Source: Candidatus Berkelbacteria bacterium | Lineage (GTDB): Bacteria; Patescibacteriota; UBA1384; JACPKC01 | Reading direction: 5' to 3' | Assembly (NCBI GenBank): GCA_016198415.1 | Contig: JACQIO010000014.1 | Span: 1 to 51,258 of the forward strand | DNA: 51,258 nucleotides | In this document: one piece after another, positions 40,305 through 51,258 of the stretch | How the letters are laid out: the number at the start of each line of letters is the position of its first letter | Numbering within the stretch: position 1 is the stretch's first letter | Program-made: the position numbers and the translations under genes | Notes under the pieces: generated by a model | Database searches by the model: none | Seen by the model: the letters and a program-made list of their open reading frames with translations, nothing else | What the model was told of the DNA's origin: nothing

Positions 40305-42383
40305 CTAGCTCCCGGCAATGTCCCAGTAGGCATGAGTGGTCCGGGGAAACCAAGCGATACCATCGGCCACCAGGCCGACATCGAGTCGTTGGGTGCCACT
40401 ACTGGTGCCGCTGTTCCGAATCTGAAAGGTGAAGGTGCCGGTCTCGCCGGGCGCAACGCTCGCTTCGGTCAACGTCGCTGGCCGATTGGCCGAGACCCAA
40501 TTGGAGGCGAGCGGGAAGGTACTGAAGCTAAAGTTGTAGTCCCGGTCGACGGTCCCCAGGTTCACGGCTCCGCGACGCCAGGTGGCGGTCCCAGTGTTCC
40601 GGTAGCGGATCGTCATCGTTGAGGACTGCCCCACCGCGAGCGTGGGGTAGCGGAAGTCACCGGCCGAACTCGACCACGCGACAACCTGAGCGTCGTAGGC
40701 CGGGGAAACGGTGATGTCCCAGTACGCGTGCGTCTTGGCTGGGAACCACGCGATGCCGTCGGCAACGAGGCCGACGTCAAGGCGATAGCTCCCGCCAGCG
40801 ACGGTCCCCGGGTTCGCCAGCTGGAAGGTGAAGGTCCCGATCTCACTGGGAGCGACACTCGCCTCAGTCAACGTCGCCGGTCGATTCGTTGAGAGCCAAC
40901 CCGAGGCAAGGGGTTCGCTGTCGAGGCGGAAGTTGAAGTCCCGGTCAACGGTCCCGAGATTGACAACGTTCCGGAACCAGCGCGTTCGGCCGGTGTTCCG
41001 GTAGCGGATGGTGATGGTGACCGGATCGGTCCCGGAGAGACGCGGGTAGGCCCCCTCCTGACCCGAGCTCGACCAAGACACCACCTCGCCGGCGTAGTTG
41101 CCGGCATTCCGAATGGCGGCCTGAAGGTTGAGGATACCCCAGCCGGTCTCGTCAGTCCGCCCGCTCCCGCCCGACACCTGCCGAGCGGTGGAGAGGAGGA
41201 TATCGACAATCTCCTGGTTGCCCGCGCTCGAGTGAAAGTCTTTGACGACCATGACACCACCGGCCACGAACGGCGTCGCCAACGACGTGCCCGAGAGCGT
41301 CGTGTAGCCACCGCCATCCTTGGTAGTGTAGATCGACTCACCCGGGGCCATGAGGTCAAGGTTGGCACCGTAGTTTGAGAAGCTCGACCGCGCGTCGCTA
41401 CTCCCCACGGATCCAACGGCGAGGACGTGCTCGCTCGCGGCTGGGTAGCTGACCGTATTAGTGCTGTCGTTGCCACTCGCCGCAACCAGCACAATCCCCC
41501 TGGACCAGGCTTGGTCAAGGGCCGAGGTGAGGGCGGCCGACTCGGTCCCGCGGCCAAAACTCATGGAGATGACGTGGACTCCGGCATCAATCGCGTAGGT
41601 GAGTGCCTCAACGACATCGCTCGTCGTTGCCATGCCGGAACTATCAAAGGCCTTGACTGGGACGAGTTTGGCCCGCCAGTCAACCCCCGCCACGCCGAGA
41701 CTATTGTTACCGGAGGCGGCCGCCACCCCAGCCACGCTCGTGCCGTGACCGTTGTCGTCGGAGTCGGTGTTGGCGGCCAGATCGGCATCGGTCATCACGT
41801 TCCGGCCGGCCAGGATCTTTCCGGATAAGTCTTCATGGGTGCCGTCGATGCCGGTGTCGATGATCGCAATCTTGGCGGTCGTCTTGCCCTGGACGTAGTC
41901 CCAGGCCTCAGGGGCCCGAATCTGCTCGAGCGCCGTCCGCTGGCTGGCGTAGTTGGCATCGTTCGGCGTGGCGGTGATCGCAAGGAGCGCGTCGTCCTCA
42001 ATGCTCTCCACCTCGGCGAGCGCCAGACTCCGTTCACGCACCTGGTTGCGCAGCTCGGGATCCCAGACGGTCACTGTCACCACCCCGGTCCCCGGATGGA
42101 GGGCCAGATCGTCAGGGCTGATCCCGAGCTCAGCCGCCAGGCCGTCCAGCGACGGGGGGTCAGCCTGGAAGGTGATGAGGAGTTGCCGAGCGGCCCGTTG
42201 ATCAGCCGGCGTGATCGGCCCGGCTCTCCCCAGCTCAGCGGGCGACGCCTGAGAGGCCTCGGCCGCCGGTTCCGCCCCTACCGGGCGGCTCCCGATTCGG
42301 AGCCCCAGCCCAATTAGCCCGCCCACGACAAGGAACCCAAGGAGCACTCGGACCTGGACGGGGAGCTCGGCCAGTCCAGTCAT
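40305..42383 (-). CDS. Secreted/anchored S8 subtilisin-like protease with two C-terminal NBR1-Ig-like repeats
   Basis: A 692-residue serine protease. An N-terminal hydrophobic segment (VRVLLGFLVVGGLIGLGLRIG) directs export or anchoring; a propeptide follows (about 60-150, with ARQLLITFQADPPSLDGLA, fervidolysin-like). The catalytic triad is intact: IAIIDTGIDGTHEDL (Asp176), DNGHGTSVAGVAAA (His213) and TTLSGTSLATPFVAGG (Ser367). The C-terminal 265 residues hold two repeats of about 130 residues (VVAWSSSAGDFRYPTLAVGQ ... RLDVGLVADGIAWF) of NBR1 Ig-like type, also found in the neighbour at 43169. Such domains probably bind the cell surface or a glycan. It overlaps the upstream methyltransferase by ATGA. 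Confidence 0.93.
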   Translation of the reverse strand: MTGLAELPVQVRVLLGFLVVGGLIGLGLRIGSRPVGAEPAAEASQASPAELGRAGPITPADQRAARQLLITFQADPPSLDGLAAELGISPDDLALHPGTGVVTVTVWDPELRNQVRERSLALAEVESIEDDALLAITATPNDANYASQRTALEQIRAPEAWDYVQGKTTAKIAIIDTGIDGTHEDLSGKILAGRNVMTDADLAANTDSDDNGHGTSVAGVAAASGNNSLGVAGVDWRAKLVPVKAFDSSGMATTSDVVEALTYAIDAGVHVISMSFGRGTESAALTSALDQAWSRGIVLVAASGNDSTNTVSYPAASEHVLAVGSVGSSDARSSFSNYGANLDLMAPGESIYTTKDGGGYTTLSGTSLATPFVAGGVMVVKDFHSSAGNQEIVDILLSTARQVSGGSGRTDETGWGILNLQAAIRNAGNYAGEVVSWSSSGQEGAYPRLSGTDPVTITIRYRNTGRTRWFRNVVNLGTVDRDFNFRLDSEPLASGWLSTNRPATLTEASVAPSEIGTFTFQLANPGTVAGGSYRLDVGLVADGIAWFPAKTHAYWDITVSPAYDAQVVAWSSSAGDFRYPTLAVGQSSTMTIRYRNTGTATWRRGAVNLGTVDRDYNFSFSTFPLASNWVSANRPATLTEASVAPGETGTFTFQIRNSGTSSGTQRLDVGLVADGIAWFPRTTHAYWDIAGS
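40308..41099 (-). repeat. Two NBR1-Ig-like protein repeats in the subtilase
   Basis: Units at 40308-40697 and 40698-41099. They share YRNTG, NLGTVDRDxNF, the RPATLTEASVAP block and RLDVGLVADGIAWFP. The DNA of the two units has diverged, unlike the pair at 43.2-44.0 kb. Confidence 0.85.
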
Positions 42384-43168: not shown

Positions 43169-44668
43169 CTAGGCTCCCACGTCCCAGTAGGCATGGGTGG
43201 TTCGGGGGAACCAAGTAATGCCGTCGGCCACCAGGCCAACATCAAGACGATAGGTCCCGCCAGTGACACCCCCAGGATTCGTCACCTGGAACGTGAACGT
43301 CCCCGTTTCGCCCGGGGCCACGCTCGCCTCGGTCAAGGTGGCCGGGCGGTTGGTGGAGAGCCAGTTGGAGGCGAGGGCGTAGCTCCCAAACCGGAAGCCA
43401 AAGTTCTCATCGACGGTGCCGAGGTTGACGGTGCCACGCGCCCAAGAAGCCGTCCCCGTATTCAGGTACCGAATCGATAGGGTCGACGTCTGACCACTAC
43501 TCAAGGTGGGGTAGCGGAAGTCCCCGGCCGAGGTGGACCAGGAAACCACTTGGCCATCGTACGCCGGTAAGGTCCGGACTTCCCAGAAGGCATGGGTGGT
43601 TCGGGGGAACCAAGTGACGCCGTCGGCCACTAACCCGACGTCGAGGCGGTACGTATCGGCGTGGATCCCACCGTGTCTGACCTGGAATGTAAAGGTGCCG
43701 GTTTCGCCGGGGGCCACGCTCGCCTCGGTCAAGGTGGCCGGGCGGTTGGTGGAGAGCCAGTTGGAGGCGAGGGCGTAGCTCCCAAACCGGAAGCCAAAGT
43801 TCTCATCGACGGTGCCCAGGTTGACCGTGCCACGGCGCCAAGTGGCGGTTCCGATGTTCCGGTAGGTAATCGTGAGCGTTGCGGTCTGCCCGGACGCGAG
43901 GGTGGGGTAGCGGAAGTCCCCGGCCGAAGTGGACCAGGAAACCACCTGGCCGTCAAAGGCTGGGCTTGTGAACCGATAGGTGTTGTAGAAGAGGTTCCAG
44001 AAGTTGTAGTTCCCGTTGTAGACGTGCGGGGTGTAGCGGTAGAGCGAGGCGGCGGCTCGGTTATCGTACGAGCCACAGTTGGTGCCGTTGTGATCGGAGA
44101 AACAGAAGCTCTGACCAACTTGGTAGTCGGCAAAGTCGTGGCCTGAGGCACGCTCGTAGTTGTAGCGGAGCTGCCAGGCCCCATTCTCCACCTGCTTGGT
44201 GAATCCCGCGTAGGTGGCGTTACAGCCACCACCGTCCGGACAGGCGTAGCCCATGGCCGCCCGGAGCGCCCCCTCGCTGTACTCGGACCGGGTGATGAGG
44301 CTCTGCTCTTTCTGGAGGGTGGCCAGAATCACGCCGGGGTGGACGGTCCCCGTTGCCTCGGTGATGGCGATCCCGTTGATGCTGCCGGAGGCCTCGCCTA
44401 CCCCATGCGCCGCATCGACGATGATCTGGGCAGCCGATCGTCCGCCCTCAGAGAAGCCGGCCAGGTAACTACCTCGATCCACGAGGAAACGTTGGACGTC
44501 GTCCACGCTCAGTGCATTCACGCTCGTGAACTCACCATCGGAGATGAGGTTGGAGGGGTTGAACTCAGCGGCCTGGACGACCGGCGCGAACAGGCTGAAG
44601 CCAAGCCCCAGGAATCCGAGTCCAACGAGCCTTTGGATAGATCGACGGGCATCGTCAACAGTCGACAC
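43169..44668 (-). CDS. Secreted lytic-enzyme-like protein with two NBR1-Ig-like repeats
   Basis: 499 residues from GTG (VSTVDDARRSIQRLVGLGFL), five bases after GGAGGGAG; the track start is 12 codons earlier without a ribosome site. A signal peptide ends LFAPVVQA-AEF. Residues about 40-240 form a domain with VDDVQRFLVDRGSYL, VHPGVILATLQKEQSLIT, MGYACPDGGGC and AAASLYRYTPHVYNGNYNFWNLFYNTY. The LQKEQSL glutamate and the aromatic ending resemble lysozyme/transglycosylase-like secreted proteins of CPR bacteria; the activity is inferred. Two repeats of about 130 residues end the protein, nearly identical to each other. The gene is probably first in the 37.8-44.7 kb cluster. Confidence 0.82.
   Translation of the reverse strand: MSTVDDARRSIQRLVGLGFLGLGFSLFAPVVQAAEFNPSNLISDGEFTSVNALSVDDVQRFLVDRGSYLAGFSEGGRSAAQIIVDAAHGVGEASGSINGIAITEATGTVHPGVILATLQKEQSLITRSEYSEGALRAAMGYACPDGGGCNATYAGFTKQVENGAWQLRYNYERASGHDFADYQVGQSFCFSDHNGTNCGSYDNRAAASLYRYTPHVYNGNYNFWNLFYNTYRFTSPAFDGQVVSWSTSAGDFRYPTLASGQTATLTITYRNIGTATWRRGTVNLGTVDENFGFRFGSYALASNWLSTNRPATLTEASVAPGETGTFTFQVRHGGIHADTYRLDVGLVADGVTWFPRTTHAFWEVRTLPAYDGQVVSWSTSAGDFRYPTLSSGQTSTLSIRYLNTGTASWARGTVNLGTVDENFGFRFGSYALASNWLSTNRPATLTEASVAPGETGTFTFQVTNPGGVTGGTYRLDVGLVADGITWFPRTTHAYWDVGA
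43172..43957 (-). repeat. Two near-identical NBR1-Ig-like repeat units
   Basis: Units at 43172-43561 and 43562-43957. About 107 bases (43314-43420 and the matching part of the other unit, near 43710-43816) are identical, and the flanks differ by single bases. This points to recent duplication or gene conversion. Confidence 0.9.
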
Positions 44669-44694
44669 GAGGTCTCCCTCCGTTCTTACGACGG

Positions 44695-44703
44695 AGTATA
44701 ACA
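44695..44703 (-). promoter_or_regulatory. Extended -10 promoter of the lytic-like gene
   Basis: On the minus strand TGTTATACT combines a TG extension with a five-of-six -10 (TATACT), 26 bases before the GTG start. No good -35 is present at the right distance, as is normal for extended -10 promoters. The rest of the 158-base gap to the PAP2 gene holds diffuse TCTGG/CCAGA inverted words but no gene. Confidence 0.5.
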
Positions 44704-44826
44704 TAGCCGAGTCTCCCAGACCTCTGGAGGATCAGATCACCAGTGAAATCCCAGTTCCTCAGACTGCCAGATGCTGCTGGGCTATCTGACCGACTCACTG
44801 GTCTCTGGTTCGCCTGGTGGTCTGAA

Positions 44827-45491: not shown

Positions 45492-46196
45492 ATGGTCTCT
45501 CTGCTAGAGGCTGCTCGAGACGCGGTGCTCGACCTCGTCTTCCCCACCCGCTGCCTCGGCTGCGATGCACCGGGTCAGTGGTTCTGTGAGACCTGCCTGA
45601 CCGCCAGTCGACTGACGCGCTCCCTCACCCACTGCCAACGTTGCAACCGGTTTACCAGACGGCCCGGTCGGCTCTGTGGAGCGCACCGCCAGGCACTCGG
45701 GCTCCACGGTCTGGCCAGCCTGGGTGACTTCCACGCCCCACCGCTCCGCCGGGCCATCCACCTGGGTAAGTACGAGGCCGTCGGTACCGGCCTCACGGCC
45801 CTGACGACGCATCTCCTGGAACGAGTCGAACCGGTCTTGGCGGCCGTGCCGGTGGGCGTCCTGGTCCCCCTACCCCTCTCGGCGCCGCGGCTCCGGACCC
45901 GCGGCTACAACCAGAGCCTGATCATCGCCCGAGAGCTCGAGCGGCGGACTGGCCACGCGCTCTCGCTGGGCCTGACGCGACGCCAAGACGCCGGCCAGCA
46001 GGTGGGTCGCTCGCGGGCCGAGCGTCTCGATGCCATGGACGGCGTCTTTGCCTGGCGAGGTGAGCACGCCCCGCGCTCGGTCATCCTCGTCGACGACGTC
46101 ATCACCACCGGTGCGACCCTCCGGGCGGCCGCCCAGGCACTGCGCACCGCTGGCGCCCGCGAGATCTACGCCCTGACGCTGGCGGATGAGGTCTGA
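45492..46196 (+). CDS. comF: ComF family phosphoribosyltransferase-like protein
   Basis: 234 residues. The N-terminal zinc-finger-like part has CLGCDAPGQWFCETCL and a further THCQRCNRF pair. The C-terminal PRTase domain carries VPLPLSAPRLRTRGYNQSLIIARELERRTG and the PRPP loop SVILVDDVITTGATLRAAAQAL. ComF/GntX proteins are linked to DNA uptake in competent bacteria, and ComF is widely kept in CPR genomes along with type IV pili. The start has no ribosome site and follows a -10-like TAGGCT by six bases. Confidence 0.93.
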   Translation: MVSLLEAARDAVLDLVFPTRCLGCDAPGQWFCETCLTASRLTRSLTHCQRCNRFTRRPGRLCGAHRQALGLHGLASLGDFHAPPLRRAIHLGKYEAVGTGLTALTTHLLERVEPVLAAVPVGVLVPLPLSAPRLRTRGYNQSLIIARELERRTGHALSLGLTRRQDAGQQVGRSRAERLDAMDGVFAWRGEHAPRSVILVDDVITTGATLRAAAQALRTAGAREIYALTLADEV

Positions 46197-46258: not shown

Positions 46259-46648
46259 ATGGCGACGCAAGCTGCGACGAGCGATCTCACCAACGACGAC
46301 TGGATGGATGAGGATGCGGGTGGCCAGCTGGCCATTGACGCCTACCAGACCGATGACACGGTGGTCATCAAGGCGCCGATTGCCGGCGTCAATCCGGAAG
46401 ACCTCGAGGTCAACATCACCGAGGACACGGTCATGATCAAGGGCGAACGGCACGCCGGCGAGAGCGTCCAGCGCGAGCACTACTTTATGCAAGAGTGCTA
46501 CTGGGGCGCCTTCTCCCGCTCCTACGTCCTGCCGACGGCCGTTGACGCCGACAACGCCGACGCCCAGCTCAAGAACGGCATCCTGACGATTACGATCCCC
46601 AAGCTCTCCAAGACCCGCGCCCGCCGCTTGGCTGTCAAGACGCGGTGA
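46259..46648 (+). CDS. Hsp20 / small heat-shock protein
   Basis: A 129-residue alpha-crystallin-domain chaperone that holds unfolding proteins in an ATP-independent way. The domain begins GQLAIDAYQTDDTVVIKAPIAGVNPEDLEVNI and includes DTVMIKGERHAGESVQREHYFMQE, AFSRSYVLPTAVDADNADAQLKNGILTITIPK, with the canonical A-x-L-x-N-G-I-L motif. Its own promoter and ribosome site are clear. The 3' end overlaps the convergent UGP gene by 14 bases. Confidence 0.95.
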   Translation: MATQAATSDLTNDDWMDEDAGGQLAIDAYQTDDTVVIKAPIAGVNPEDLEVNITEDTVMIKGERHAGESVQREHYFMQECYWGAFSRSYVLPTAVDADNADAQLKNGILTITIPKLSKTRARRLAVKTR

Positions 46649-48157: not shown

Positions 48158-49564
48158 ATGAGACCGATTCGTCGGTGGCTGGGATTACTCATCATCACCC
48201 CACTCGTCTTGACGGGCTGTTTTGGTGGTGGCACCACACCAACCCCCACTGACTCAACCGAGCCAGCGGCGAATACCATCGAGATCTGGCGACCCTTTGA
48301 GAGCGAGGAGGTCTTCAATCCCATCCTCGCTTCTATGGAAGCGAGCAACGAGGGCCTGGACCTCGTCTACCGCCAGATCCCGATTGAGGAGTACGATCTC
48401 CGAATCAACGAGGCCCTCGCCTCAGAAGCCGGGCCGGACATCATCTCGATCCCCTCAGACGCCCTTGATCGATACAAGGACCGCCTCGTCCCAGCCCCGG
48501 AGGGCGTGATCCCCTCGAATACCCGGACGGCAGTCACCACCAATACCGATGCCCTGGCGGCGTTCTTTGCGCCGGTCGTCAGACAAGACGTGATGCGCGA
48601 CGATCAGATCTACGGCCTGCCGCTCTACGTCGACACCCTCGCGATTTACGTCAACCCCGCTCTCGTCCGGGCCCGGGCCCAACAATTTGACCGAGCCGAG
48701 CGACGGGAGGAGGCGGAGTTCCTCAAGTCCTTCGGCTTCAACACGTACGATCGACTGATCACGGCCATCGAACTCCTCACGGAACGAAGAACCGACGGGA
48801 GTTTTGAGGTCGCGGGGCTTGCTGCCGGCACGTCAAGTAACGTTCGGGCTGCCGCTGATATCGTCAGCGCGATGATGCTCCAGAACGGAACCCAGATGCT
48901 CGCTCCGGATGACCAGAACGCCACCTTCCACCTGGCGATTGACGGGCCGGCCGGCGCTAAGATTTTCCGGGGCACTGAGGCGCTCACCCGTTACACTAGC
49001 TTTGCAGATCCTGCCAACAGCTTCTATACCTGGAACGCCAGCATGCCGGATGACGTCCAAGCCTTCCTGGATGGGAAGGTAGCAATGATCTTTGGCTACC
49101 AGTACTACGAGCTTCTCTTCCGCCAACTCGCCCCAACGTTTAGCTATGCCGTCGTTCCTTTTCCTCAGATTGCTGATACCGAACGGCCGGTCGACTACGG
49201 CTCCTACTGGGTGGAGGTGGTCACCAAGAGCGCCGAGAATCCTGGGTTGACTTGGGGCGTCCTGGCCAAGCTCGGCGGGGACTTCAACCAAAGCTTCCTG
49301 GACAGCACCGGCCGGCCGTCACCCAGACCCACAACCGATGCGATCCCGAGTACGATCGGGCGAGCGAGCGAGACCAAGTCGCCCTTCAGCTACCAGCCCC
49401 AGACCGCCACCAGTTGGCGGAAAGGGAAGCGGCCAGACCGCGTCGACAACCTGTTCCGAGACATGATTCGGCGCGTCTCTCAAGATGGTGAGCCAGCCCA
49501 GACGGCCATTGAGGCGACTGCTAAGCTCGTCACGGAGCAGAGCCTCCAGACAGAGTGGCCGTGA
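48158..49564 (+). CDS. Extracellular solute-binding lipoprotein (family 1, sugar-type)
   Basis: 468 residues from ATG (MRPIRRWLGLLIITPLVLTG), eight bases after GGGGAGGG; the track start 12 codons earlier overlaps the promoter. A lipoprotein signal peptide ends in the lipobox LTGC (Cys near 25), then a Thr/Pro-rich linker. The mature part starts IEIWRPFESEEVFNPILASM and has EAGPDIISIPSDALDRYKD, YGLPLYVDTLAIYVNPALV and FLDGKVAMIFGYQYYE, the SBP_bac_1 (maltose-binding-like) pattern. No permease or ATPase gene is adjacent. Instead it is coupled (TGATG) to a VirB2-like gene, so a role other than ordinary import should be considered. Confidence 0.9.
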   Translation: MRPIRRWLGLLIITPLVLTGCFGGGTTPTPTDSTEPAANTIEIWRPFESEEVFNPILASMEASNEGLDLVYRQIPIEEYDLRINEALASEAGPDIISIPSDALDRYKDRLVPAPEGVIPSNTRTAVTTNTDALAAFFAPVVRQDVMRDDQIYGLPLYVDTLAIYVNPALVRARAQQFDRAERREEAEFLKSFGFNTYDRLITAIELLTERRTDGSFEVAGLAAGTSSNVRAAADIVSAMMLQNGTQMLAPDDQNATFHLAIDGPAGAKIFRGTEALTRYTSFADPANSFYTWNASMPDDVQAFLDGKVAMIFGYQYYELLFRQLAPTFSYAVVPFPQIADTERPVDYGSYWVEVVTKSAENPGLTWGVLAKLGGDFNQSFLDSTGRPSPRPTTDAIPSTIGRASETKSPFSYQPQTATSWRKGKRPDRVDNLFRDMIRRVSQDGEPAQTAIEATAKLVTEQSLQTEWP

Positions 49565-49890
49565 TGAACACGGCTATGTTGCGGGTGGCGGCCAACACCA
49601 CCGGCGAGCTCGGTGGAATCCAGCTGGAGCCAGTCATTGATCCCAAGTACGGCGGGACCCTCGTGGAGTTCTTCACCAAGGGGGTGCCGGACTTCCTCTT
49701 AGGTTTTGCCGGTCTGATTGCCCTGGTCATGCTCTTGATCGGCGGCCTCTGGTACCTCTTCAACGCCGGGAACTCGGATGCCACCGGTCAGGCCAGGAAC
49801 ACGATGCTCTGGTCCCTGATTGGACTCTTGGTGGTCCTGCTCTCCTACGCGGCCCTCAACTTCATTCGCCAGGCGCTGGGGTCCGGATGA
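49564..49890 (+). CDS. TrbC/VirB2-like pilin-type membrane protein 1
   Basis: 108 residues from the ATG in the TGATG overlap (MNTAMLRVAANTTGELGGIQ); the track's GTG is three codons earlier. Two hydrophobic helices (DFLLGFAGLIALVMLLIGGLWYLF and MLWSLIGLLVVLLSYAALNFI) with a short polar turn, NAGNSDATGQARN, give the VirB2/TrbC pilin layout. There is no obvious cleavable signal. Family members assemble type IV secretion-type pili or similar membrane polymers. Followed by a close relative with a four-base overlap. Confidence 0.78.
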   Translation: MNTAMLRVAANTTGELGGIQLEPVIDPKYGGTLVEFFTKGVPDFLLGFAGLIALVMLLIGGLWYLFNAGNSDATGQARNTMLWSLIGLLVVLLSYAALNFIRQALGSG

Positions 49891-50219
49891 ATCGTCTCGC
49901 GTTCCTCCTTCTGACTCTCCTCCCTGGGCTCGCGAGCGCCGAGGGCTTGCTCCCAGAGAACTTTGGCGACCCAGAAAACCAAACCTACGCCTACGTGCTG
50001 TACTCATTGAAACACCTCGGCAACGTTGCCATCCAGATTGTCTTTGCTGTCGCCCTCGTCTTCCTCATCCTGACCGGCTACCGAATGATCACCTCGCTCG
50101 GCAACGACAAGGCGGTCCAGCAGTCCAAGATGAGCATCCTCTACATCATCATTGGGATTCTGGTGGTCATCGGCGCCTACGTGATTGTGAACACCCTCGG
50201 CCAACAGATCCTCCGGTGA
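49887..50219 (+). CDS. TrbC/VirB2-like pilin-type membrane protein 2
   Basis: 110 residues. A cleavable signal peptide is likely (MNRLAFLLLTLLPGLASA-EG). Then come a short outside region and two helices (VAIQIVFAVALVFLILTGYRMI and MSILYIIIGILVVIGAYVIVNTLG), around the polar turn TSLGNDKAVQQSK, as in VirB2. It overlaps protein 1 by ATGA, so equal translation is likely. It is followed by a 173-base gap with repeats. Confidence 0.82.
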   Translation: MNRLAFLLLTLLPGLASAEGLLPENFGDPENQTYAYVLYSLKHLGNVAIQIVFAVALVFLILTGYRMITSLGNDKAVQQSKMSILYIIIGILVVIGAYVIVNTLGQQILR

Positions 50220-50224
50220 GAGAC

Positions 50225-50324
50225 TTCCAGATGACCAGGGGGCCAGACTGCCAGTACATTTCCCAGGAGGATCCGGTCGGCTGACGGTCTGGATGTCTGA
50301 TGGTCTGCCTGCTACGGGCAGGCA
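50225..50324 (+). repeat. Stuttered CCAG/GTCTG words ending in a TGCCTGC hairpin
   Basis: The words CCAGATGACCAG, CCAGACTGCCAG, then GGTCTGGATGTCTGATGGTCTG run into a hairpin TGCCTGC/GCAGGCA (50306-50324). The words before and after are near-complements, giving a large loose fold. It may terminate the upstream pair or be an intergenic repeat; the GCCTGCC core resembles that at 31.5 kb. Confidence 0.45.
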
Positions 50325-50392
50325 TGTGGATAAGCTCAGCAAGCAAGTCGGCAGAAGATAGGGTAGTATCGGTACGTACACAGGAGGGATCA

Positions 50393-50884
50393 ATGATGCA
50401 CTCCGTCCGAGGGTGGTATATCAGGAATCGAGAACGAATCTATCGTATCGCAGGAACCGGCGCGGGCGTGGGGAGTCTCTTAGTCCCCACCACGGCGATC
50501 GGTGCAAGCGCTGCGGGCACAACGACAACTGGTGGAACAATCACGCAGCCGACTCTGCCACCTGGCTTTCAGAACCTTGGGGCGCTGATCTCCCGGATCT
50601 TCACGATTGCGGCTGGGATCGCAGGCATCGTCTTCTTGATCCTCTTCCTGATTGGGGCCATCCAGTATCTGACCGCCGCCGGCAATGAAGACAACACTAA
50701 GAAGGCCCGGACGCTCATGCTCGATGCCTTCGTTGGCCTCATCTTGGTCCTCGCCGCCTGGGCCATCGGGACCTTCGTGCTCAGTATTCTGGGCATCTCA
50801 ACAACCAGCGAATTCTTCTCGATTCAGAACAGTAGTACTGGAACAGTTACCCCCGGGGCGTCGACAGCGCCGCTGACCCCGTAG
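50393..50884 (+). CDS. TrbC/VirB2-like pilin-type membrane protein 3
   Basis: 163 residues from the first ATG of ATGATG after AGGAGG (track start rejected because it runs through the repeat region). Residues 1-40 look like a long signal or anchor segment (GTGAGVGSLLVPTTAIGASAAG); then a Thr/Gly-rich linker. Two helices follow (RIFTIAAGIAGIVFLILFLIGAIQYL and MLDAFVGLILVLAAWAIGTFVLSIL) around the turn TAAGNEDNTKKARTL. A Ser/Thr-rich tail ends the protein. The turn matches protein 4 almost exactly. Followed by a strong terminator. Confidence 0.85.
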   Translation: MMHSVRGWYIRNRERIYRIAGTGAGVGSLLVPTTAIGASAAGTTTTGGTITQPTLPPGFQNLGALISRIFTIAAGIAGIVFLILFLIGAIQYLTAAGNEDNTKKARTLMLDAFVGLILVLAAWAIGTFVLSILGISTTSEFFSIQNSSTGTVTPGASTAPLTP

Positions 50885-50900
50885 AGTTGGTGCTTCGATC

Positions 50901-50934
50901 ACCAAAGAGACGCGCTCAAGCGCGTCTCTTTGGT
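50901..50934 (+). terminator. Intrinsic terminator
   Basis: ACCAAAGAGACGCGC-TCAA-GCGCGTCTCTTTGGT, a perfect 15-bp stem with a four-base loop, 17 bases after the stop. The lower part of the stem gives CTCTTT on the transcript, so this is the most canonical terminator in the window. Confidence 0.85.
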
Positions 50935-50945
50935 GCCGGGCGTGG

Positions 50946-50951
50946 TAGAAT
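50946..50951 (+). promoter_or_regulatory. -10 element before pilin-type gene 4
   Basis: TAGAAT (five of six) lies between the terminator and the GGGAGGGAG ribosome site, 22 bases before the ATG. The -35 is not clear. Confidence 0.45.
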
Positions 50952-50973
50952 ATACGCAAGCATAGGGAGGGAG

Positions 50974-51258
50974 ATGCGTCACCGTTTCCTGATGACTGGA
51001 GCCATGCTGGCAACGCTCATCGCCGTCGCGCCGAGTTTGGCTGGGGCCGCCGATGAGTTCCTCTTCAACGCCCCCTCGGCCGTGCCGGAGGGCTTGCGGA
51101 CGCTGGGACCGGCGCTGGGCAAGATCTGGTCTATCATCGCCGCCATTGCCGGGATCGTCTTCCTGGTCATGATCCTCATTGGCGGGATCTCGTACCTCTC
51201 CTCCGCCGGCAACGAGGATGGGACCAAGAAGGCCCGGACGCTCATGCTCGATGCCTTC
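50974..51258 (+). CDS. TrbC/VirB2-like pilin-type membrane protein 4 (partial, 3' end outside window)
   Basis: The first 95 residues are present. A signal peptide, MRHRFLMTGAMLATLIAVAP..LAGA-AD, is followed by a short outside stretch. Next come the first helix (IWSIIAAIAGIVFLVMILIGGISYLS) and the turn SAGNEDGTKKARTLMLDAF, where the window ends. The last 33 bases are identical to the matching part of protein 3, showing a close paralogue. It was missed by the plus-strand ORF track because it runs off the end. It has its own -10 and a GGGAGGGAG ribosome site. Confidence 0.88.
   Translation, partial: MRHRFLMTGAMLATLIAVAPSLAGAADEFLFNAPSAVPEGLRTLGPALGKIWSIIAAIAGIVFLVMILIGGISYLSSAGNEDGTKKARTLMLDAF

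Follow-up and report, generated by a model that had tools for sequence, protein, structure and literature searches.

A Sugar-Binding-Type Lipoprotein Gene at the Head of a Type IV Secretion Pilin Array in Candidatus Berkelbacteria and Other Patescibacteria

Introduction

The type IV secretion system (T4SS) of the Patescibacteria is described in the main account (PMC12102498) as being of MPF-FATA ancestry, with arrays of 2–11 VirB2-like pilins and a site near replication genes; the same text reports a comF association of the system in ABY1 and finds VirB8 homologues only seldom in Patescibacteria. Southlakia epibionticum, the sole Patescibacterium tested, cannot grow as an epibiont without the T4SS and its pilins (PMC10633639; reviewed in PMC12857230). 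The locus treated here is an array of this kind from a Candidatus Berkelbacteria bacterium (GTDB lineage Patescibacteriota; UBA1384; JACPKC01), and the window that was analysed is the whole of contig JACQIO010000014.1 of assembly GCA_016198415.1, 51,258 nucleotides (nt) long. The first gene of the array encodes a sugar-binding-type lipoprotein, a solute-binding protein (SBP) related to those of ATP-binding cassette (ABC) importers, and the pairing of this gene with the pilin genes is deeply conserved in the class and recurrent across the phylum.

The locus resembles the published patescibacterial T4SS in its PF18895 pilin arrays and its comF link and, in some relatives, in its VirB4, PrgI and TrsD neighbours and its nearness to replication genes. 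It differs in that the published accounts, as far as their accessible text goes, have neither a solute-binding lipoprotein nor a PilB-like paralogue as array partners, and in that the pilin array stands apart from the virB4 cluster in most of the present class. A literature search joining SBP terms with candidate phyla radiation (CPR) or Patescibacteria and with pilin or type IV found no report of the pairing in the sources covered, which exclude supplementary tables and most subscription papers. What is already published is the T4SS with its pilin arrays. The conserved SBP lipoprotein and the dedicated PilB-like ATPase of most of the class appear to be new, two candidate components absent from the accessible text of the T4SS papers.

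By analogy, the closest functional precedent is the bindosome of Sulfolobus (bas operon), in which pilus machinery has been co-opted by substrate-binding proteins: its sugar-binding proteins use the machinery of type IV pili and occur together with a pilus-type assembly ATPase (PMC4371748). The bindosome SBPs, however, are themselves equipped with processing sites of the pilin type, and components of the type IV pilus assemble them (PMC4371748), whereas the present SBP has a lipobox or a transmembrane (TM) anchor and is accompanied by pilins of the VirB2-like T4SS type. With the CUT1 or MalE-type SBPs of ABC importers it shares the fold, a GPD motif, an acidic equivalent of MalE E111 and PDB neighbours that bind oligosaccharides, but it is linked to pilins, its own genome has no permease and its position in the tree is a separate one. 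The pilins themselves are like the VirB2/TrbC conjugative and archaeal conjugation pili in their signal-peptide-like N-terminus (three of the four), two long helices and short loop, and unlike the VirB2/TrbC pilins in matching PF18895 rather than PF04956 and in being tandem divergent paralogues.

The Array and Its Proteins

The array lies on the plus strand, with the SBP lipoprotein gene first and four T4SS_pilin (PF18895) genes after it, the last of them incomplete:

48158..49564, plus strand: SBP_bac_1/SBP_bac_8 lipoprotein, 468 amino acids, ATG start, first gene of the array (Pfam, lipobox, AlphaFold2)
49564..49890, plus strand: pilin 1, 108 amino acids, two TM helices (44–62 and 80–98, by hydropathy), no evident signal peptide; PF18895, 29.6 bits
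49887..50219, plus strand: pilin 2, 110 amino acids, signal-peptide-like N-terminus (ASA|EG), two TM helices; PF18895, 34.3 bits
50393..50884, plus strand: pilin 3, 163 amino acids, signal-peptide-like N-terminus, helical hairpin, low-complexity C-terminal tail; PF18895, 39.7 bits
50900..50935, no strand: perfect 16-bp inverted repeat between pilins 3 and 4, with a 4-nt loop and no U-run after it; fold of 50885–50973, −41.2 kcal/mol
50974..51258, plus strand: pilin 4, 95 amino acids up to the contig end, gene incomplete; PF18895, E 6.6e-4 and 20.1 bits on the fragment
51226..51258, plus strand: 33-nt exact copy, within pilin 4, of positions 50699–50731 of pilin 3 (sequence comparison)

The SBP stop codon and the pilin 1 start codon overlap (TGATG, 49562–49566; a GTG at 49555 is an alternative start), and pilin 1 in turn overlaps pilin 2 (ATGA, 49887–49890). 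An earlier note on the window had the SBP translationally coupled to the whole chain of four pilins; coupling by overlap holds for these two junctions but does not extend to pilins 3 and 4, which start 173 and 89 nt beyond the gene before them. A Shine–Dalgarno-like AGGAGGG precedes the start of pilin 3. A promoter scan found no promoter. The hairpin in the second gap occurs once in the window, the intergenic stretch that holds it (50885–50973) has a folding z of −4.86, and it is a possible attenuator or processing site.

The same note had the last pilin gene running off the window, and so it does: the window takes in the whole of contig C34 of its assembly, which comprises 738 kb in 37 contigs and is 83% complete (labels with G denote genomes, G000 being this assembly, those with L denote SBP neighbourhoods or loci, and those with f denote families within the class). 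Because the array sits at the end of a contig that is itself the whole window, no sequence can be read to its right. The last base of the contig is the end of the 33-nt repeat common to pilins 3 and 4, and the break is therefore probably an artefact of assembling a tandem array. Continuation of the array on another contig of G000 was considered and rejected, as the sole other pilin match (C36:24623) stands by itself and has no array around it.

All four proteins are two-helix pilins as had been read from the sequence, with pilins 1–3 above the curated PF18895 cut-off of 26.6 bits and the fragment of pilin 4 being 51% identical to pilin 3. The earlier note called them VirB2/TrbC-like, but PF04956 (TrbC/VirB2) is matched by pilin 2 alone and below its cut-off (19.7 bits against 27.9, E 0.001); judged by these profile scores, PF18895 and not PF04956 is the right family. 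The nearest NCBIfam model, NF045849 (pilin-like conjugal transfer protein), scores 39.6 bits on pilin 3, just under its cut-off of 40. AlphaFold2 predicts for pilin 3 a hairpin of helices 62–94 and 99–132 with a predicted local distance difference test score (pLDDT) of about 85 there, in a model that is weak overall, and the top structural neighbour is the conjugation pilus of Aeropyrum pernix at a non-significant E of 1.2. A search of the pilin profile against the sequences of solved structures likewise gave no significant match.

The sugar-binding-type lipoprotein claimed in the earlier note is borne out by its lipobox LTG-C (VLTGC) and by matches to PF01547 (E 7.9e-10, 39.6 bits, curated cut-off 26) and PF13416 (E 1.4e-9), both above the curated cut-offs. 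The AlphaFold2 model, built on an input alignment of 45 sequences, has a mean pLDDT of 91 and shows the full two-lobed fold. Foldseek against the PDB places it with the oligosaccharide-binding protein 5ci5 (E 1e-20) and then with binding proteins for beta-1,2-glucan, maltooligosaccharide and cyclic glucans, and the sequence profile search agrees with the oligosaccharide-binding match. When residues were counted over 75 SBPs linked to pilins, drawn from both class and phylum, the GPD motif proved to be conserved (G in 67, P in 74 and D in all 75), the position equivalent to MalE E111 was acidic in 73, and the most conserved residues were largely aromatic (W44, Y290, W292 and F303). Many relatives, their N-termini read from sequence, have a TM helix in place of the lipobox, so that the conserved trait is anchoring rather than lipidation; none of the N-termini read carries a class III prepilin signal. 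One in-match stop codon is seen in some SBP matches (L038, that is G006:C1:748959-750236, together with L115, L126, L129 and a few other matches in the phylum), possibly through alignment overrun, frameshift or recoding.

Conservation of the Pair

Within the class, 53 of 55 genomes have a single-copy orthologue of the SBP and 54 have PF18895. Of the 53 SBP neighbourhoods examined, one with just 146 nt past the SBP was left out, and in 51 of the 52 testable loci the next gene 3′ of the SBP, overlapping it or not, encodes a pilin, with its start within 150 nt in 50 and with gene overlaps frequent; the sole exception, L086, has one other open reading frame (ORF) between the two. The earlier note had asked whether lipoprotein and pilin genes might always be separate in relatives; they are instead together in nearly every one, and the order recurs in other CPR genomes, where the note had proposed to check it. 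By profile search, 288 of the 380 genomes covered in the phylum have SBP relatives (class members included). A pilin lies directly 3′ of the SBP in 36 of 40 high-scoring loci outside the class and in 43 of 58 loci of public genomes that bear a title (Falkowbacteria, Uhrbacteria, Moranbacteria, Nealsonbacteria, Portnoybacteria and others), both samples having been selected by score and not as a census of the phylum. Among 28 genomes chosen for weaker SBP matches, six loci had pilins and the remainder had other neighbours.

A tree of 114 SBPs, supported by the Shimodaira–Hasegawa-like approximate likelihood ratio test (SH-aLRT) only and with some long branches, places 75 of the 76 pilin-linked rows within one group of 89 and sets the SBP apart from MalE, YcjN and UgpB of E. 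coli. The pilin label changes five times on this tree against 32 times in shuffles, a clustering that fits an old association with a few losses. The flanking genes on both sides differ among families while the junction of SBP and pilin persists. The pairing is not due to chance.

Secretion Genes, ATPases and Permeases

VirB4-type genes linked to the array, which the earlier note had proposed to look for, are found directly adjacent in five relatives, L075–L079 (families f18–f20), where the SBP gene lies directly 3′ of a VirB4/T4SS operon. In L076 the operon has PrgI and VirB4 by Pfam, a TrsD-like gene that is a weak TraC match, and a large upstream membrane protein that is VirB6-like by position only. 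The window, whose contig stops within the array, holds none of PrgI, TrsD and VirB4. Elsewhere in the class VirB4 is the rule (53 of 55 genomes), and its clusters in G001–G004, G006, G019, G020 and G034 include PrgI and mostly TrsD, with no pilin. In 22 genomes (G003–G006, G008, G010 and G034 among them) the pilins at the SBP locus are all the PF18895 matches that the genome has, by a comparison that mixes counts from two different models and includes some fragmentary assemblies, so the SBP-linked array is the only pilin supply found there.

Of the 35 class loci with at least 6 kb of 3′ sequence, 30 have a gene for a PilB/GspE-like ATPase next to the array, and the five that lack it all belong to family f3. 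In G001 this array-side ATPase scores about 380–606 bits against its array-side counterparts in other genera versus 299 against the PilB of its own pilus locus, and this closer match rules out, for that genome, its being the ordinary type IV pilus PilB. One might guess that the array-side ATPase is the equivalent of VirB11 in role.

No ABC permease is encoded near the SBP, as the earlier note had said, and the permease family PF00528 (BPD_transp_1) is without a match in the whole assembly. Nor was a permease pair belonging with the SBP found in relatives: PF00528 has no match in 45 of the 55 class genomes (the present one included, as well as the single-contig G006 and G034), and any match at all in just 10, although the SBP is in 53; the same search gave matches in 14 of 14 control genomes. 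The low-scoring SBP relatives L170–L198, many of them followed by genes of about 280 amino acids, were considered as SBPs of ABC importers and rejected, since sequences and Pfam gave glycosyltransferase, O-antigen ligase and other genes; the neighbours read at weaker-scoring pilin-free SBP loci are not permeases. Orphan SBPs of L239, L236, L161, L167, L178 and L187 lie beside genes of O-antigen ligase or glycosyltransferase type instead of pilins, L236 and L239 being titled Peregrinibacteria. By Pfam, the orphan SBP of L239 stands between a family 2 glycosyltransferase and a Wzy_C gene, and Wzy_C adjoins the SBP also in L178 and L187.

A Receptor for the Secretion Pilus?

In this ultra-small bacterium, and in most of its phylum, a protein of the sugar-catching type heads a T4SS pilin array. 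With no importer for it to supply, it is probably a receptor part of the machine used on other cells. In the reading that we favour, with a rough probability of 0.55, the SBP is anchored in the membrane, binds a ligand and serves the patescibacterial type IV secretion or pilus system as an accessory subunit, most likely as a glycan receptor and not as part of an importer. The earlier note's preference for a T4SS-derived assembly with a ligand-binding lipoprotein over an ordinary importer gains support from the absence of permeases and from the linkage of SBP and pilins in relatives.

A former solute-binding protein of the sugar ABC type, left without a permease partner, would be anchored in the membrane by lipid or TM helix and made as the first product of a VirB2-like pilin array. 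From the pilins, two-helix proteins by sequence and prediction, VirB4-type machinery would assemble a pilus or channel; relatives encode that machinery beside the array or tens of kilobases away, and the PilB-like ATPase next to the array would probably assist it. The SBP domain would most likely bind carbohydrate at the surface of the epibiont's partner cell, or on the epibiont's own envelope, and may thereby act as a receptor or gate for the pilus or secretion channel. The pairing suggests that an importer's binding protein was recruited to a secretion or pilus system, in parallel to the archaeal bindosome, and a conserved SBP of soluble fold at the head of the array offers a directly testable handle on what the machine recognises. 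More tentatively, the locus may stand for a phylum-wide, undescribed type of T4SS pilus that has an SBP receptor and, for VirB11, its own PilB-like ATPase, recognises partner-cell glycans and gates transfer or uptake at the contact of epibiont and host.

Several observations weigh against a receptor of the T4SS. In most class genomes VirB4 is 16–40 kb off or on another contig. G000 itself, at 83% completeness, has no VirB4 by Pfam or by a VirB4-specific profile, the latter result speaking against a copy overlooked through divergence, and it has no match to the T2SSE ATPases, of which eight relatives have 3–6. Several separate losses of VirB4 and T2SSE in assembly gaps are possible at this completeness but not a comfortable explanation, and a real loss of the secretion machine in the G000 lineage may be the alternative. 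The position equivalent to MalE D65 is variable (D in 29 of the 75 pilin-linked SBPs), which leaves the ligand chemistry poorly constrained. Finally, related orphan SBPs of other lineages occur without pilins beside glycosyltransferase or O-antigen ligase genes, so an SBP of this kind can work outside the pilin context.

Could the SBP instead capture sugars or small molecules and pass them to the pilin assembly, or be displayed by it, for uptake in the manner of a bindosome? Its classic oligosaccharide-binding fold would suit such a device, as would the PilB-like ATPase beside the array, which has its like in the Sulfolobus bas operon (PMC4371748), and most of the genomes, being without SBP-dependent permeases, would need another route. 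The SBPs, however, have a lipobox or an N-terminal TM helix and no class III prepilin signal, and the array contains no candidate for a membrane importer. VirB2-like pilins are not known to import sugars, and on balance an uptake device is unlikely.

Rather unlikely, too, is a structural exaptation in which the SBP fold now serves the T4SS as a scaffold or chaperone, for example in place of absent VirB5-, VirB7- or VirB8-type parts, and ligand binding has been lost. The acidic residue at the E111-equivalent position, the GPD motif and the two-lobed fold have all been retained, against which stand the variation at some pocket-equivalent positions (D101), the aromatic character of the most conserved residues, which may be structural, and the scarcity of VirB8 homologues in Patescibacteria (PMC12102498).

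That GalU or a UDPGP-family enzyme is encoded directly 5′ of the SBP in most class loci, and that orphan SBPs adjoin Wzy_C, with or without a glycosyltransferase, could point to the envelope: the SBP would handle the cell's own surface glycan or the glycosylation of pilins, and pilins, GalU and O-antigen ligase would together make a glycosylated surface layer. Families f2 and f18–f20, however, have the pilins but not GalU next to the SBP, and GalU may be a housekeeping neighbour, which leaves an envelope-glycan function improbable.

An ordinary ABC sugar importer with permease genes elsewhere or overlooked has in its favour that the SBP belongs to the SBP_bac_1 sequence family, but it is very hard to reconcile with the missing PF00528 matches, single-contig genomes among them, and the uniformly positive controls. 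Equally hard to credit is a mere neighbourhood in which slow rearrangement close to the replication origin would have left unrelated SBP and pilin genes side by side, for although dnaA-, dnaN-, rnpA- and yidC-like genes were read from the sequence near the module in L047, L055, L057 and L263, the flanks change among families while the SBP–pilin junction stays constant, gene overlaps are frequent, and the pilin label changes far less often on the tree than in shuffles.

Neighbouring Genes

Three genes 5′ of the array belong to its neighbourhood in the window:

45492..46196, plus strand: ComF-type phosphoribosyltransferase, a conserved neighbour in the class; PF00156 above cut-off, PF18912 (DZR_2) just below
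46259..46648, plus strand: HSP20 small heat-shock protein, likewise conserved beside the module within the class; PF00011
46635..48068, minus strand: UDPGP-family UTP-glucose-1-phosphate uridylyltransferase, a neighbour without implied membership of the system; PF01704, E 1.5e-124

The slot between HSP20 and the SBP, which the UDPGP gene fills here, holds GalU in most relatives, directly 5′ of the SBP. UDPGP in the GalU slot looks like a non-orthologous displacement in the window's own family, and the copies of G000 and G002 (L013) are oppositely oriented. In the uhrbacterial locus L250 a gene for a presenilin-type signal-peptide peptidase (PF06550, 6023-6856) lies directly 5′ of the SBP–pilin array, and L217 and L219 have ORFs of similar size at that place. 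Farther upstream in the window, a subtilase (40305-42383, minus strand) and a 511-amino-acid exported protein (43169-44704, minus strand) have weak C-terminal matches, below cut-off, to N_BRCA1_IG and CARDB, and the two proteins possibly share an Ig-like surface module.

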